IMG/VR virus record: IMGVR_UViG_3300032116_000681
Span: 1 to 35,669 of that record
Length of the DNA: 35,669 nucleotides
Source: a virus
Reading direction: 5' to 3' (one strand)
The notes under the pieces were generated by a model, which did no database searches, had not been told where the DNA came from, and saw only the letters and a list, made by a program, of their open reading frames with translations. The translations under genes were made by a program, and so were the position numbers. This document shows, one piece after another, positions 3,394-26,003 of the stretch; positions within the stretch are counted from its first letter, which is position 1, and every line of letters begins with the position of its first letter.

Positions 3394-3524
3394 CCCGCGT
3401 ACGGCTTCTCGTAGGTAGAGCTGCTCTTGTTTTTAGACCTGCTCTTGGCGTGTCTTCCGTGGTTCTTCTTGGGGTTCAGCACGAGCTTCTCTGAAGCCCT
3501 TCCGCTAGATTTTGCTTTAGCCAT
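3381..3524 (-). CDS. Small basic protein (47 residues)
   Basis: The ATG at 3524 shares its A with the TGA of the M15 peptidase gene (TGATG), and the frame runs to a TGA at 3381-3383. The product begins MAKAKSSGRASEKLVLNPKK and is rich in Lys, Arg, Ser and Asn, with the stretch HGRHAKSRSKNKSSS. It resembles tiny basic proteins common in Bacteroidetes phages, function unknown. The convergent overlap with 2965-3393 is 13 bases. Confidence 0.7.
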   Translation of the reverse strand: MAKAKSSGRASEKLVLNPKKNHGRHAKSRSKNKSSSTYEKPYAGQGR

Positions 3525-3982
3525 CAGTACAGCTTGTATATGGTTGCTTTTCCGTCGCGCATAGCACGCAGCACGCGCTTCTTATTGTTCCCTTTGTGGT
3601 ATGACACGTGTACCCATTCTGGATTCTCGTCGTTACCGAACTCCCAAATCAGTTGATTGAACTCTAGGTTCTTCTTGATAAATTCAAAAACCTCTTTGTT
3701 TGTGACGCCTCCATGAGTATCTGCGTCAAGATCGAGCGCACGCCCAACCATATGCTCCGACGTTTTCGACCCTCCGACTGCTTTATTGAGTTCTTTGCAG
3801 CGGAATCCTGATGATACTGCGATAGGTACATCGAAGTGGTCTCGTAAGGGCTGAAAAACATGAGTAGCTATATCTATAAGATTTGCAATGTCCTCTTTAT
3901 CTGGGGCATTATTTATCCCCAGGCGCTCTGCCGTTATAGACTTTGTCACCTCCCTTAGGCTGAGGTTTTTGCTTAGTTGCAT
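3524..3982 (-). CDS. M15-family peptidase, probable endolysin
   Basis: This is a zinc peptidase of the M15A (D-Ala-D-Ala carboxypeptidase/endopeptidase) family. The 152-residue sequence has SSGFRCKELNKAVGG at residues 57-71, then SEHMVGRALDLDA with zinc ligands H77 and D84, then WVHVSY with the third ligand H125. E122, next to the tryptophan, is the likely catalytic glutamate. The length equals the catalytic domain alone, with no wall-binding domain and no signal peptide, so export would need a holin. In phages this family usually cleaves peptidoglycan cross-links at lysis. The ATG at 3982 follows an AATTAAAA leader. Confidence 0.92.
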   Translation of the reverse strand: MQLSKNLSLREVTKSITAERLGINNAPDKEDIANLIDIATHVFQPLRDHFDVPIAVSSGFRCKELNKAVGGSKTSEHMVGRALDLDADTHGGVTNKEVFEFIKKNLEFNQLIWEFGNDENPEWVHVSYHKGNNKKRVLRAMRDGKATIYKLY

Positions 3983-9242: not shown

Positions 9243-9596
9243 ATGAAAAACTTTTTTGTTCTCCCCCTGTTCGTCGCTTTCAGCGTAGCTGTTTCTGCTC
9301 AAACCTTCACCGCAAAGACCTCTTCGGGTGGTGGATTCGATGTCACCTCAGGTGTCGAAACGAAAGACGTCTTCGAGCTTGATGGCAAGACCTTCCCTGT
9401 ACGTCAGACGAACAACGGGTCACGCTATGTGACTGCCACCAGCAAGTCAGGCAATCCGTATGCCGTTTGGTTGGGCCAACCGACTGAAAACGAGTTCGAA
9501 GGCCGCACGGTTTACGTCACGAAGAACGGGTCGTTCTGTGTCTACATCATCGGAAGCAACGGCTTCCCGTATGCAAAGTGGTTGGACAAGAACTGA
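9243..9596 (+). CDS. Secreted or periplasmic protein with two repeats
   Basis: The 117-residue protein has a clear signal peptide (MKNFFVLPLFVAFSVAVSA, cut likely before Q20). The mature part holds two related units: GKTFPVRQTNNGSRYVTATS then GNPYAVWLG, and GRTVYVTKNGSFCVYIIGS then GFPYAKWLD. Each is a short beta module ending in PYAxWL, reminiscent of basic-adaptor-like repeats of large viruses and phages (inference). The leader ACAAACCCTTTTAATTCATTTACA is nearly identical to that of the ERF gene at 16167. A phage protein exported on its own may alter the host envelope or block superinfection. Confidence 0.8.
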   Translation: MKNFFVLPLFVAFSVAVSAQTFTAKTSSGGGFDVTSGVETKDVFELDGKTFPVRQTNNGSRYVTATSKSGNPYAVWLGQPTENEFEGRTVYVTKNGSFCVYIIGSNGFPYAKWLDKN

Positions 9597-23721: not shown

Positions 23722-23750
23722 GAGGGGGCGCATGGCCCCCTCTTTTTTTT
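23722..23750 (+). terminator. Strong intrinsic terminator
   Basis: GAGGGGGC and GCCCCCTC form a perfect eight-pair stem around GCATG, followed by eight T residues. It ends the plus-strand block in the convergent gap to the minus-strand genes. Confidence 0.95.
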
Positions 23751-23784: not shown

Positions 23785-24129
23785 TTACTTGCGTCTAATT
23801 GCTTTGACTTTATTTCCCATGCCTACCGCAGACTTCTCTGACTTCTTTATAGCGAGCATGGACGGGCTCATCTCTCCCTTGGTGACTGGCGTCTTTGAAG
23901 ACACTCTCTTGCTGGGTCTACAGTACTCGTTAGATCCTCCAGCACCGCAAGCCTTTCCAGTCTTTGTGTCTACCCATTTCTCTGCCTCCCATCTTTTAAG
24001 GTTCGACCCAGCCTCCGTCTTTCTCACATCGCCCTTAGCCTTTCTACACTTTGCGGTAGCTTGAGCTGCACGGGCGGACCACTTCCCATAGCTCTTCATG
24101 ACCTTATTGTAGCAGGCGTCTTTAGCCAT
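23785..24129 (-). CDS. DUF5872-like protein
   Basis: The 114-residue basic protein contains KWSARAAQATAKCRK, then GSNLKRWEAEKWVDTKTGKA followed by CGAGGSNEYCRPSKRVSSKTP. This is the layout of DUF5872, a domain found in phages and large DNA viruses. Two regularly spaced cysteines after TKTGKACG suggest a small fold with metal or disulphide. Function unknown; its high charge and late position suit a minor virion protein (inference). Its ATG overlaps the previous TAA by one base. Confidence 0.8.
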   Translation of the reverse strand: MAKDACYNKVMKSYGKWSARAAQATAKCRKAKGDVRKTEAGSNLKRWEAEKWVDTKTGKACGAGGSNEYCRPSKRVSSKTPVTKGEMSPSMLAIKKSEKSAVGMGNKVKAIRRK

Positions 24130-24329
24130 TATCTAAACTTAGCCTTCTCGTTGATCTTGACTTTCGTTCCGTCAGGAAGATTTCCTTTCGCCTTGAAATG
24201 ATTTCTTCTAACAGTTCCGTCTGCGTTTGTAACCAGAACGAACTTACCAGTAACAGGAACCTCTTTGTCGTCTATTCCTACAGTCCAAGTTCCTTTTTCT
24301 TTTGTTCTAGTTCTTTTTTTGGGAGTCAT
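24129..24329 (-). CDS. Small basic hypothetical protein
   Basis: The 66-residue protein opens with MTPKKRTRTKEKGTWTVGID and is strand-rich: KFVLVTNADGTVRRNHF and GTKVKINEKAKF. It may be a small barrel. It overlaps the protease gene by 23 bases. No family recognised. Confidence 0.65.
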   Translation of the reverse strand: MTPKKRTRTKEKGTWTVGIDDKEVPVTGKFVLVTNADGTVRRNHFKAKGNLPDGTKVKINEKAKFR

Positions 24330-25548
24330 TTATCTTTCTTATTATTTCGTGAATGTCTTCGGGCTTAGTCGCCAACTGCCTAGGCAAAGATAATCCAAAA
24401 CAATTACAATTTTGCCCATACACATTGAGCAGGTAGAGAACGTCATTTGACGTGACCATGTGATCCAGATCTATATCTCCTTCTGTGCAGAACTCGCAGC
24501 CCATGTTAGAAAGCATGACAAGCAAGTCGCTTGTACCTACGTGACAATCCCCGTCTAAATCCCCGAAACAAAACACCTCATCAGAAAACAAGTCAGATCT
24601 TTGATACTCAAGCATAGCATGCATACGATCTATCTGTCCGTCAGTAAACACATCTCTGCATTCTTCTGGACAGTAGTCCATATGGTTGTTGGGGTAGAAC
24701 TGCACCCCTCCGTAATTCATCAATGGGCAATGATACCCTGGAACATCTGGACAGCCTTGGCTAACCTTTGTAGGAGGCGTGTCGCACACGTAGTCTCCAC
24801 TGTGTTCACAAGGGCCTAGGTATTGACCGCAGTTAGATATGGCGCTTGCGCCGTTCTTAAACACATGATGCAGTCCGCAGTAGTGACCAACCTCGTGAGT
24901 AAGGGTTTCATTCTCAAACCTGAACGTGAGGTGAGGCCCGTATGTCCCCATCACTTCTGTCTCTACCCACACCCCGTCCAACACGCTATAGGGAATATAT
25001 GTAACCCATGCAAAACCAAGGATCGATGAGCAGAAGTCTGGGGCAACGTAGATATTGCAGTACTCTGCGGTATTCCATTTAACCATGTTAGTCCACTGAG
25101 CCATCTGCGTTCCGTACTGAGGGAAGCACACCCCAGATCCTGACCTATACGAAGAGGCCCATGTGAAGCTGTTCAGATTGGTATAATCGATGTCCTCAAG
25201 AGTGAACGAGATGTCAGTTCCTTCAAAGTCCACATTCAGCTGAACCATAGCATCCTCAATAATAGACTCTTGGATTTGGCTATTGGCAAACGCTGTGTCC
25301 CAAAGCACATGAACTACGCACTTAATCTCTTTGTGGTTGTATGCAGTTCTATTTTTTGTATGGTTCTTTGGGAGTATGTCTTCTTGAGGCCCCATAACGA
25401 AGCACTCCTCTTGAGCTACAGCTGGGGAGGAGCATGACGAGAACGCCATAAAGAGCAATACGACCATCACGGCCAGCACCTTCAAAAACACAAACGCACT
25501 ACAATCGTATACCGTATCGTATATGCTGGCTGATTCTCCTGTTCTCAT
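24307..25548 (-). CDS. Secreted M43-type metalloprotease with dockerin-like tail
   Basis: The 413-residue protein has an N-terminal export segment (hydrophobic at about residues 18-36, then SSCSS with C39 as a possible lipidated cysteine). A pappalysin/cytophagalysin-type domain follows: the zinc motif HEVGHYCGLHH (H218, E219, H222, H228), then GDYVCDTPP, the Met-turn NHMDYC (M290) and FTDGQIDRM. It ends with two dockerin-type calcium-loop repeats (GDLDGDCHVGTSDLLVMLSN at 329-348 and GDIDLDHMVTSNDVLYLLNV at 357-376). The domain set is usual for Bacteroidetes secreted proteins but very unusual in a phage. It lies between the holin candidate and DUF5872 genes, overlapping the holin gene in ATGA, so it is expressed late. 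Confidence 0.88.
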   Translation of the reverse strand: MRTGESASIYDTVYDCSAFVFLKVLAVMVVLLFMAFSSCSSPAVAQEECFVMGPQEDILPKNHTKNRTAYNHKEIKCVVHVLWDTAFANSQIQESIIEDAMVQLNVDFEGTDISFTLEDIDYTNLNSFTWASSYRSGSGVCFPQYGTQMAQWTNMVKWNTAEYCNIYVAPDFCSSILGFAWVTYIPYSVLDGVWVETEVMGTYGPHLTFRFENETLTHEVGHYCGLHHVFKNGASAISNCGQYLGPCEHSGDYVCDTPPTKVSQGCPDVPGYHCPLMNYGGVQFYPNNHMDYCPEECRDVFTDGQIDRMHAMLEYQRSDLFSDEVFCFGDLDGDCHVGTSDLLVMLSNMGCEFCTEGDIDLDHMVTSNDVLYLLNVYGQNCNCFGLSLPRQLATKPEDIHEIIRKINDSQKKN

Positions 25549-26003
25549 CTTTTATTTAGTTTTACTTTTTCATAGGATCTTCCAGCAAAGTATGCTGTAA
25601 ATGCGGTAGTCATCAGTATGCTGAACGTGTCTATGTACGCTGATTTTATGTTAAACAACACTTTATCAGCGCTATCCATGGCTACAAATATAGTAAAAAC
25701 AAAGACCAGATAACACAGCATGATTGGCCTTATGTTCTTTGATAACCAAGAGTCAGACATCATATCCGCCTTCCATCTCTCGGTTACGTTATTCTGTGCG
25801 TTAGCCTCGTAATCAAGCAGCATCTTCTCAAACTCCATCTTTTCCTGAGCGGTCATGTTGGGGTCAAGATCAATCAGCCTTTTCACAACGCCAAGGGCGC
25901 CTTGGTCTGGAAGCAGTTCGCCTACCGTGTCGAGGACTTGCGGGGCTTTGTCTTTTAGCCAAGTTCCCAACTTGGTATCTTTTAGTTTCTTTCTGTCTCT
26001 CAT
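25545..26003 (-). CDS. Three-TM holin-like protein (GTA holin type)
   Basis: The 152-residue protein matches the phage/GTA three-TM holin layout: a basic N-terminus, an amphipathic helix (DPNMTAQEKMEFEKMLLDYE), then NVTERWKADMMSDSWLSKNI followed by RPIMLCYLVFVFTIFVAM as the first clear membrane span, and a second region (TFSILMTTAFTAYFAGRSYE). The R-x-x-x-D...S...IRP motif before the membrane segment is typical. It should make the inner-membrane lesion that lets the M15 lysin reach peptidoglycan, although the lysin gene is more than 20 kb away. Overlaps neighbours by four bases on both sides. Confidence 0.82.
   Translation of the reverse strand: MRDRKKLKDTKLGTWLKDKAPQVLDTVGELLPDQGALGVVKRLIDLDPNMTAQEKMEFEKMLLDYEANAQNNVTERWKADMMSDSWLSKNIRPIMLCYLVFVFTIFVAMDSADKVLFNIKSAYIDTFSILMTTAFTAYFAGRSYEKVKLNKR

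Follow-up and report, generated by a model that had tools for sequence, protein, structure and literature searches.

The genome of an uncultured phage encodes, directly beside its holin, a 413-aa protein that profile and structure searches assign to the M43 metzincins, with a predicted active site that is intact. We consider it, with a probability of about 0.55, to be an exported zinc protease of the phage lysis or release module, which would cut envelope or surface proteins of the host at release. The gene lies in a 35,669-nt stretch of DNA (IMG/VR record IMGVR_UViG_3300032116_000681), referred to below as the window, and the features of this stretch are collected in Table 1. What can be read from the sequence is the protease family, the intact active site, the export segment, the coupling of the gene to its neighbor, the conserved link to lysis genes and purifying selection.

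Table 1. Features of the window around and related to the M43 protease gene
Feature	Position	Strand	Basis or remark
M43 (pappalysin-family) metalloprotease gene, 413 aa	24307..25548	-	ORF; Pfam PF05572 E 2e-17; PDB mirolysin/ulilysin
Export segment, residues 1-45; hydrophobic helix 16-38; predicted cut AVA-Q46	25414..25548	-	Pattern match; includes non-conserved lipobox-like FSSC
Cys49, candidate cysteine switch, three residues past predicted cut	25402..25404	-	Alignment; promirolysin precedent (PMC8259862)
Zinc site HEVGHYCGLHH, residues 218-228	24865..24897	-	Sequence, alignment
Met-turn Met290 (HMDY), then tyrosine-switch Tyr292	24679..24681	-	Alignment
First dockerin-like calcium loop, residues 330-341 (DLDGDCHVGTSD)	24526..24561	-	Alignment, profile
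Second dockerin-like calcium loop, residues 358-369 (DIDLDHMVTSND)	24442..24477	-	Alignment, profile
C-terminal tail KPEDIHEIIRKIN...	24310..24366	-	Kept within close clade
Holin, 152 aa, ATGA overlap with protease start	25545..26003	-	phrog_3427 E 3e-21
Giant late protein, 5' of holin, 3249 aa in full genome	26000..35623	-	ORF; no Pfam match
Basic ORF, 66 aa, overlapping protease end	24129..24329	-	Kept in some relatives
DUF5872 protein, last gene of late block	23785..24129	-	Pfam PF19197 E 1e-10
Terminator-like hairpin between late block and convergent ribonucleotide reductase gene	23722..23742	.	T tract downstream on + strand only
M15 endolysin, encoded separately in this phage	3524..3982	-	PF08291 E 2e-19; phrog_894 E 2e-36

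Domains and predicted processing of the protease

The 413-aa protein scored 64 bits with Peptidase_M43 of Pfam, for which the cut-off is 23, and its relatives in the PDB were mirolysin and ulilysin, with E 4e-13 for the single sequence and 1e-25 when a profile was used. The same two proteases were the top Foldseek matches of the structure model (E 9e-11 for mirolysin). The pLDDT of this model was 70, with low confidence at residues 229-297, and therefore its geometry is left unclaimed. The alignment of 43 phage representatives showed that the three zinc-binding histidines and the catalytic glutamate, as well as the methionine of the Met-turn and the tyrosine of the switch, are present in every one of them. 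The glycine of the HExxHxxGxxH motif is replaced by serine in 10 of the 43 representatives, while the window protein keeps it, and the pattern HE-GH--[GS]--H was found in 80 of 81 phage M43 genes, the remaining one being a fragment without that region. Many cysteines are also invariant among the phage M43s, including those of both pappalysin disulfide pairs as mapped through the PDB alignment. The earlier note on this DNA had proposed an M43 protease on the strength of the zinc motif and the Met-turn, and the agreement of Pfam, PDB and Foldseek bears this out. Pfam matched metzincin domains only, with no endolysin-type peptidoglycan-hydrolase domain in the protein, which, as a 413-aa enzyme, also differs from an i-spanin with its transmembrane segment and coiled coil and from a small outer-membrane lipoprotein.

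In the C-terminal part of the protein both calcium loops are complete (D-x-D-x-D...D), and their positions 1 and 12 are kept in at least 42 of the 43 representatives. The profile of this region matched the solved dockerin 2y3n_B with E 2.7e-5; Pfam Dockerin_1 gave no match on the window protein, and on one relative (L124) it scored 20.1 bits, below the cut-off of 22.9. The predicted loops correspond to the duplicated F-hand calcium motif of type I dockerins, and the dockerin-like tail described previously is upheld by loop conservation and the profile match, with Dockerin_1 silent.

The N-terminal region of the window protein was predicted to be a signal peptide, in line with the export segment noted before. 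A hydrophobic export segment was found in all 77 full-length relatives, and a standard cut pattern in 76 of them. The lipobox-like sequence that had also been noted is indeed present as FSSC, but it is followed by the standard signal peptidase I pattern AVA-Q, and the lipobox-like cysteine occurs in only 26 of the 77 full-length relatives. Anchoring to the envelope by lipid, which had been suggested from it, is thus not a general property of the family, even though lipidation may still occur in the window protein. No C-terminal T9SS sorting domain was detected in the window protein by Pfam and NCBIfam.

After the predicted cut, the phage M43s start with Q-E-E-C or a similar sequence, and this cysteine, which is residue 49 in the window protein, is shared by all 43 representatives. 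Promirolysin freed of its signal peptide begins with Q20-R-T-C23, in which Cys23 blocks the zinc ion (PMC8259862), and an equivalent cysteine is present in cytophagalysin and ulilysin (PMC11674741). Because the invariant Cys49 corresponds in position to the switch cysteine of promirolysin, the comparison suggests that the phage M43s could be exported as latent zymogens, with Cys49 as the candidate cysteine switch.

The closest known enzymes are mirolysin and ulilysin, which belong to the lower pappalysins (MEROPS M43B) and share with the window protease the catalytic domain, the zinc site, the Met-turn, the tyrosine switch and two disulfide pairs, and perhaps also the cysteine switch. On the other hand, the window protease is only about 20% identical to them, has a short region between the signal and the catalytic domain, carries the dockerin-like tail and is encoded by a phage; it also lacks the T9SS domain that mirolysin has. 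The ulilysin-like proteases of giant viruses (mimivirus, Tupanvirus) have a similar fold, but they come from eukaryotic viruses, have other domain partners and occur in an unrelated setting.

Genomic setting and neighboring lysis genes

Parts of a 62,221-b contig match the window almost identically; because the two ends of this contig overlap by ~114 b, it represents a complete circular genome of ~62.1 kb. Matches to phage families were obtained for its terminase, portal and capsid, the terminase being 43-47% identical to those of Flavobacterium Elemovirus and of a podovirus from Manatee Spring, while a 1490-aa tail gene bears a crAss muzzle C-terminal domain. The genome is podovirus-like and related to Flavobacterium Elemovirus, and, given these phage relatives, its host is probably a member of the Bacteroidota. 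The possibility that host DNA had been misassembled next to phage genes was refuted, as the same junctions recur in many independent contigs and in the complete circular genome. Elsewhere in the window, positions 9243-9596 encode, on the strand opposite to the late block, a 117-aa protein with an export segment and no Pfam match, and at 813-885, next to a tRNA-Arg, ARAGORN placed a tRNA whose anticodon of two bases is unresolved.

The start codon of the protease overlaps the stop codon of the holin as ATGA, which, together with the PHROG assignment of this neighbor, confirms the earlier remark on ATGA coupling in the late block next to the holin. The M43 protein is not the sole lysis enzyme, because the same phage has an M15 endolysin, and therefore the protease is an addition. 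The circular genome also encodes a 69-aa protein with a transmembrane segment and coiled coil, which is kin to Rz-like genes located between holin and M43 elsewhere, with a weak Rz-like identity (PHROG match E 0.012). A spanin-like gene of this kind was present in each of the four near-complete M43 genomes examined, while the small lipoprotein of two relatives (G006 and G007) had no match in the circular genome. Strict replacement of spanins by M43 was not upheld, as G006 and G007 carry M43 in addition to the small lipoprotein; because this lipoprotein and the spanin-like genes coexist with M43, the protease is not clearly a spanin replacement.

The same association was followed across the other loci, in which lysis genes were identified as family matches. 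A member of the holin family was found in 47 of 81 loci, being directly upstream of M43 in 37, and the overlap of the two genes was 4 b in 26 of these adjacent pairs. For other M43 genes, the neighbor is an M15 or Amidase_2 endolysin, DUF5675 or an Rz-like gene. When one sequence per 86% cluster was counted and one truncated locus was left out, the immediate neighbor was a holin, endolysin or Rz-like (spanin-like) gene in 24 of 42 usable representatives; these neighborhood figures are correlations among contigs that are not independent, with gene calls that simply followed the longest ORF. In related named phages, members of this holin family lie next to an endolysin. The neighborhood of M43 changed at least 13 times on the tree, and the identities of M43 and of the accompanying holin disagree between genomes (68 versus 86, 74 versus 56 and 65 versus 93%), which argues against simple joint inheritance of a single block as the source of the link. 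Hence, as far as gene order and identities tell, the M43 gene has moved between phage backbones yet continues to occur beside lysis genes. There are exceptions to the link: 15 of the 43 representatives (one of them truncated) show neither a holin nor an endolysin up to four genes away, and the five M43s that have C-terminal extensions (L113-L117) seem to serve another purpose.

Several neighbors in these loci were also recorded. In genome G008 (L042:6426-8642) the place of M43 after a related holin is taken by a secreted protein of 738 aa, which has a T9SS sorting tail and several copies of cysteine-rich motifs. An ORF of 1130-1369 aa without a Pfam match is ATGA-coupled to M43 at L033:7601-11023 and L032:7637-11746. 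A tandem pair of M43 genes stands behind a lipoprotein-like protein in L114 (6104-9368) and L117, the one in L117 having a terminal dockerin-like loop; a T9SS domain on these proteins was unconfirmed, with the L114 signal (E 0.029) under the cut-off. In six loci, among them L131, L143, L150 and L154, a small secreted protein without a Pfam match, for which a thioredoxin-like fold was guessed by eye, lies directly upstream of M43.

The phage M43 clade and its cellular relatives

From IMG/VR, 16 close loci were obtained at first and 131 stretches afterwards, of which 80 were kept. At least 80 viral contigs carry relatives of the protease with 35-100% identity; the patterns used in this sampling were derived from the query, and more distant phage M43s could escape it. 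When 43 phage M43s and 31 cellular ones were put in one tree, a branch with SH-aLRT support of 95 separated the two sets, which places the sampled phage M43s in one clade apart from the cellular M43s. The clade is widespread among uncultured aquatic phages, and the phages carrying it probably infect Bacteroidota.

None of the 43 representatives had a match in PHROG, and among 50,697 named phage records the only match was MT837139. This record was rejected as a phage carrier, as its ORFs look bacterial; named Bacteriophage sp. (L083), it contains apparent high-GC bacterial genes, such as an ORF resembling ribose-5-phosphate isomerase B (by eye). In about 900 Bacteroidota genomes no close match was found, the top cellular M43 reaching 138 bits on the A1 profile, and on the phage-wide profile cellular proteins reached at most 173 bits, as compared to 431-591 bits for the phage members used to build it. 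The cellular Bacteroidota M43s share with the phage proteins the protease family and, as a rule, secretion, but they typically have several hundred to more than 1,000 aa, and they form a separate tree branch.

The earlier note had raised recent transfer from a host and had regarded such proteins as foreign to the core genes of phages. The homolog search and phylogeny rule out recent transfer within the sampling. As to the second point, the view is not supported: the gene is conserved in this phage group, with pairwise dN/dS of ~0.04-0.11 where dS was unsaturated, and purifying selection on it is strong.

Possible roles at phage release

The reading that we prefer, a protease acting in lysis or release, would proceed as follows. 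The protein would be translated late, coupled to the holin, exported across the inner membrane by Sec and freed of its signal peptide, and it may then remain in the envelope as a zymogen, kept latent by Cys49 at the zinc ion. Around lysis it would be activated, with calcium stabilizing the catalytic domain and the dockerin-like tail, and would cut envelope or surface proteins of the host, beyond the inner membrane and the wall attacked by the holin and the M15 endolysin, respectively. As a result, the outer layers may give way or virions may come free. Degradation of surface layers on release, one of the roles put forward previously, stays the best reading, given the predicted export segment and the link to lysis genes.

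The protease could instead destroy surface receptors on the infected cell or on debris, so that virions are not trapped and other phages are barred. Such a role agrees with the export segment in all full-length members, with C-terminal extensions of some phage M43s (L113-L118) that recall surface-sorting domains, and with the T9SS-tailed protein in the slot after the holin in G008. We find it unlikely, as M43 is linked to lysis genes and not to receptor-binding genes, the window protein has no sorting domain, and the T9SS-type signal of L114 is under the cut-off. The lysis-gene linkage also agrees with a protease that is freed with the progeny and digests extracellular matrix or cell remains, aiding diffusion of virions, a role that has been put forward for a zinc metallopeptidase in Maribacter phage Molly (PMC8776804). 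However, release at lysis requires no signal peptide, and the enzyme of phages Molly and Colly is a different, short matrixin encoded far from the amidase gene of its phage, which makes this role rather improbable for the phage M43s.

Two further roles fit the data poorly. M43 relatives are common in Bacteroidota genomes, which could point to an auxiliary gene supplying the infected cell with an extracellular protease and nutrients, but the position beside the holin in the late block, the strong purifying selection and the absence of a T9SS signal for release from a living cell make such a benefit to the host very improbable. A virion-associated protease for entry would agree with the location of the gene within the late structural strand. 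Nevertheless, the universal export segment speaks against the virion-bound protein suggested before, and such disulfide-rich proteins fold outside the cytoplasm while virions assemble inside it; there is hardly any likelihood left for this role.

Maribacter phages Colly and Molly provide the nearest precedent for a lysis-linked phage M43 with their matrixin, which is likewise an exported zinc metzincin of a flavobacterial phage (PMC8776804). It differs in being a 199-aa lipoprotein and a matrixin rather than an M43 protease, and in its location away from the amidase gene. Spanins and disruptins of Gram-negative phages possibly share with the phage M43s a third lysis step on the outer envelope and a gene beside the holin. 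Spanins and disruptins fuse or disrupt membranes without proteolysis, and no sequence relation between them and the phage M43s was seen.

While the M43 enzyme family is already known, the lysis-linked phage clade is new to the literature searched, in which we found neither a phage-borne M43 clade tied to lysis genes nor anything on the window gene. It is tempting, though doubtful, to see here a new kind of Gram-negative phage lysis protein, that is, a Sec-exported metalloprotease kept latent by a cysteine switch, which would dismantle the outer envelope of Bacteroidota and has been shuffled between phage backbones. To our knowledge, the way in which Bacteroidota phages breach the outer membrane is poorly known, and a protease clade tied to lysis genes, and absent from both PHROGs and the 50,697 named phage records, is a concrete candidate for this step. 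If this is true, proteolysis would join the known means of phage release.
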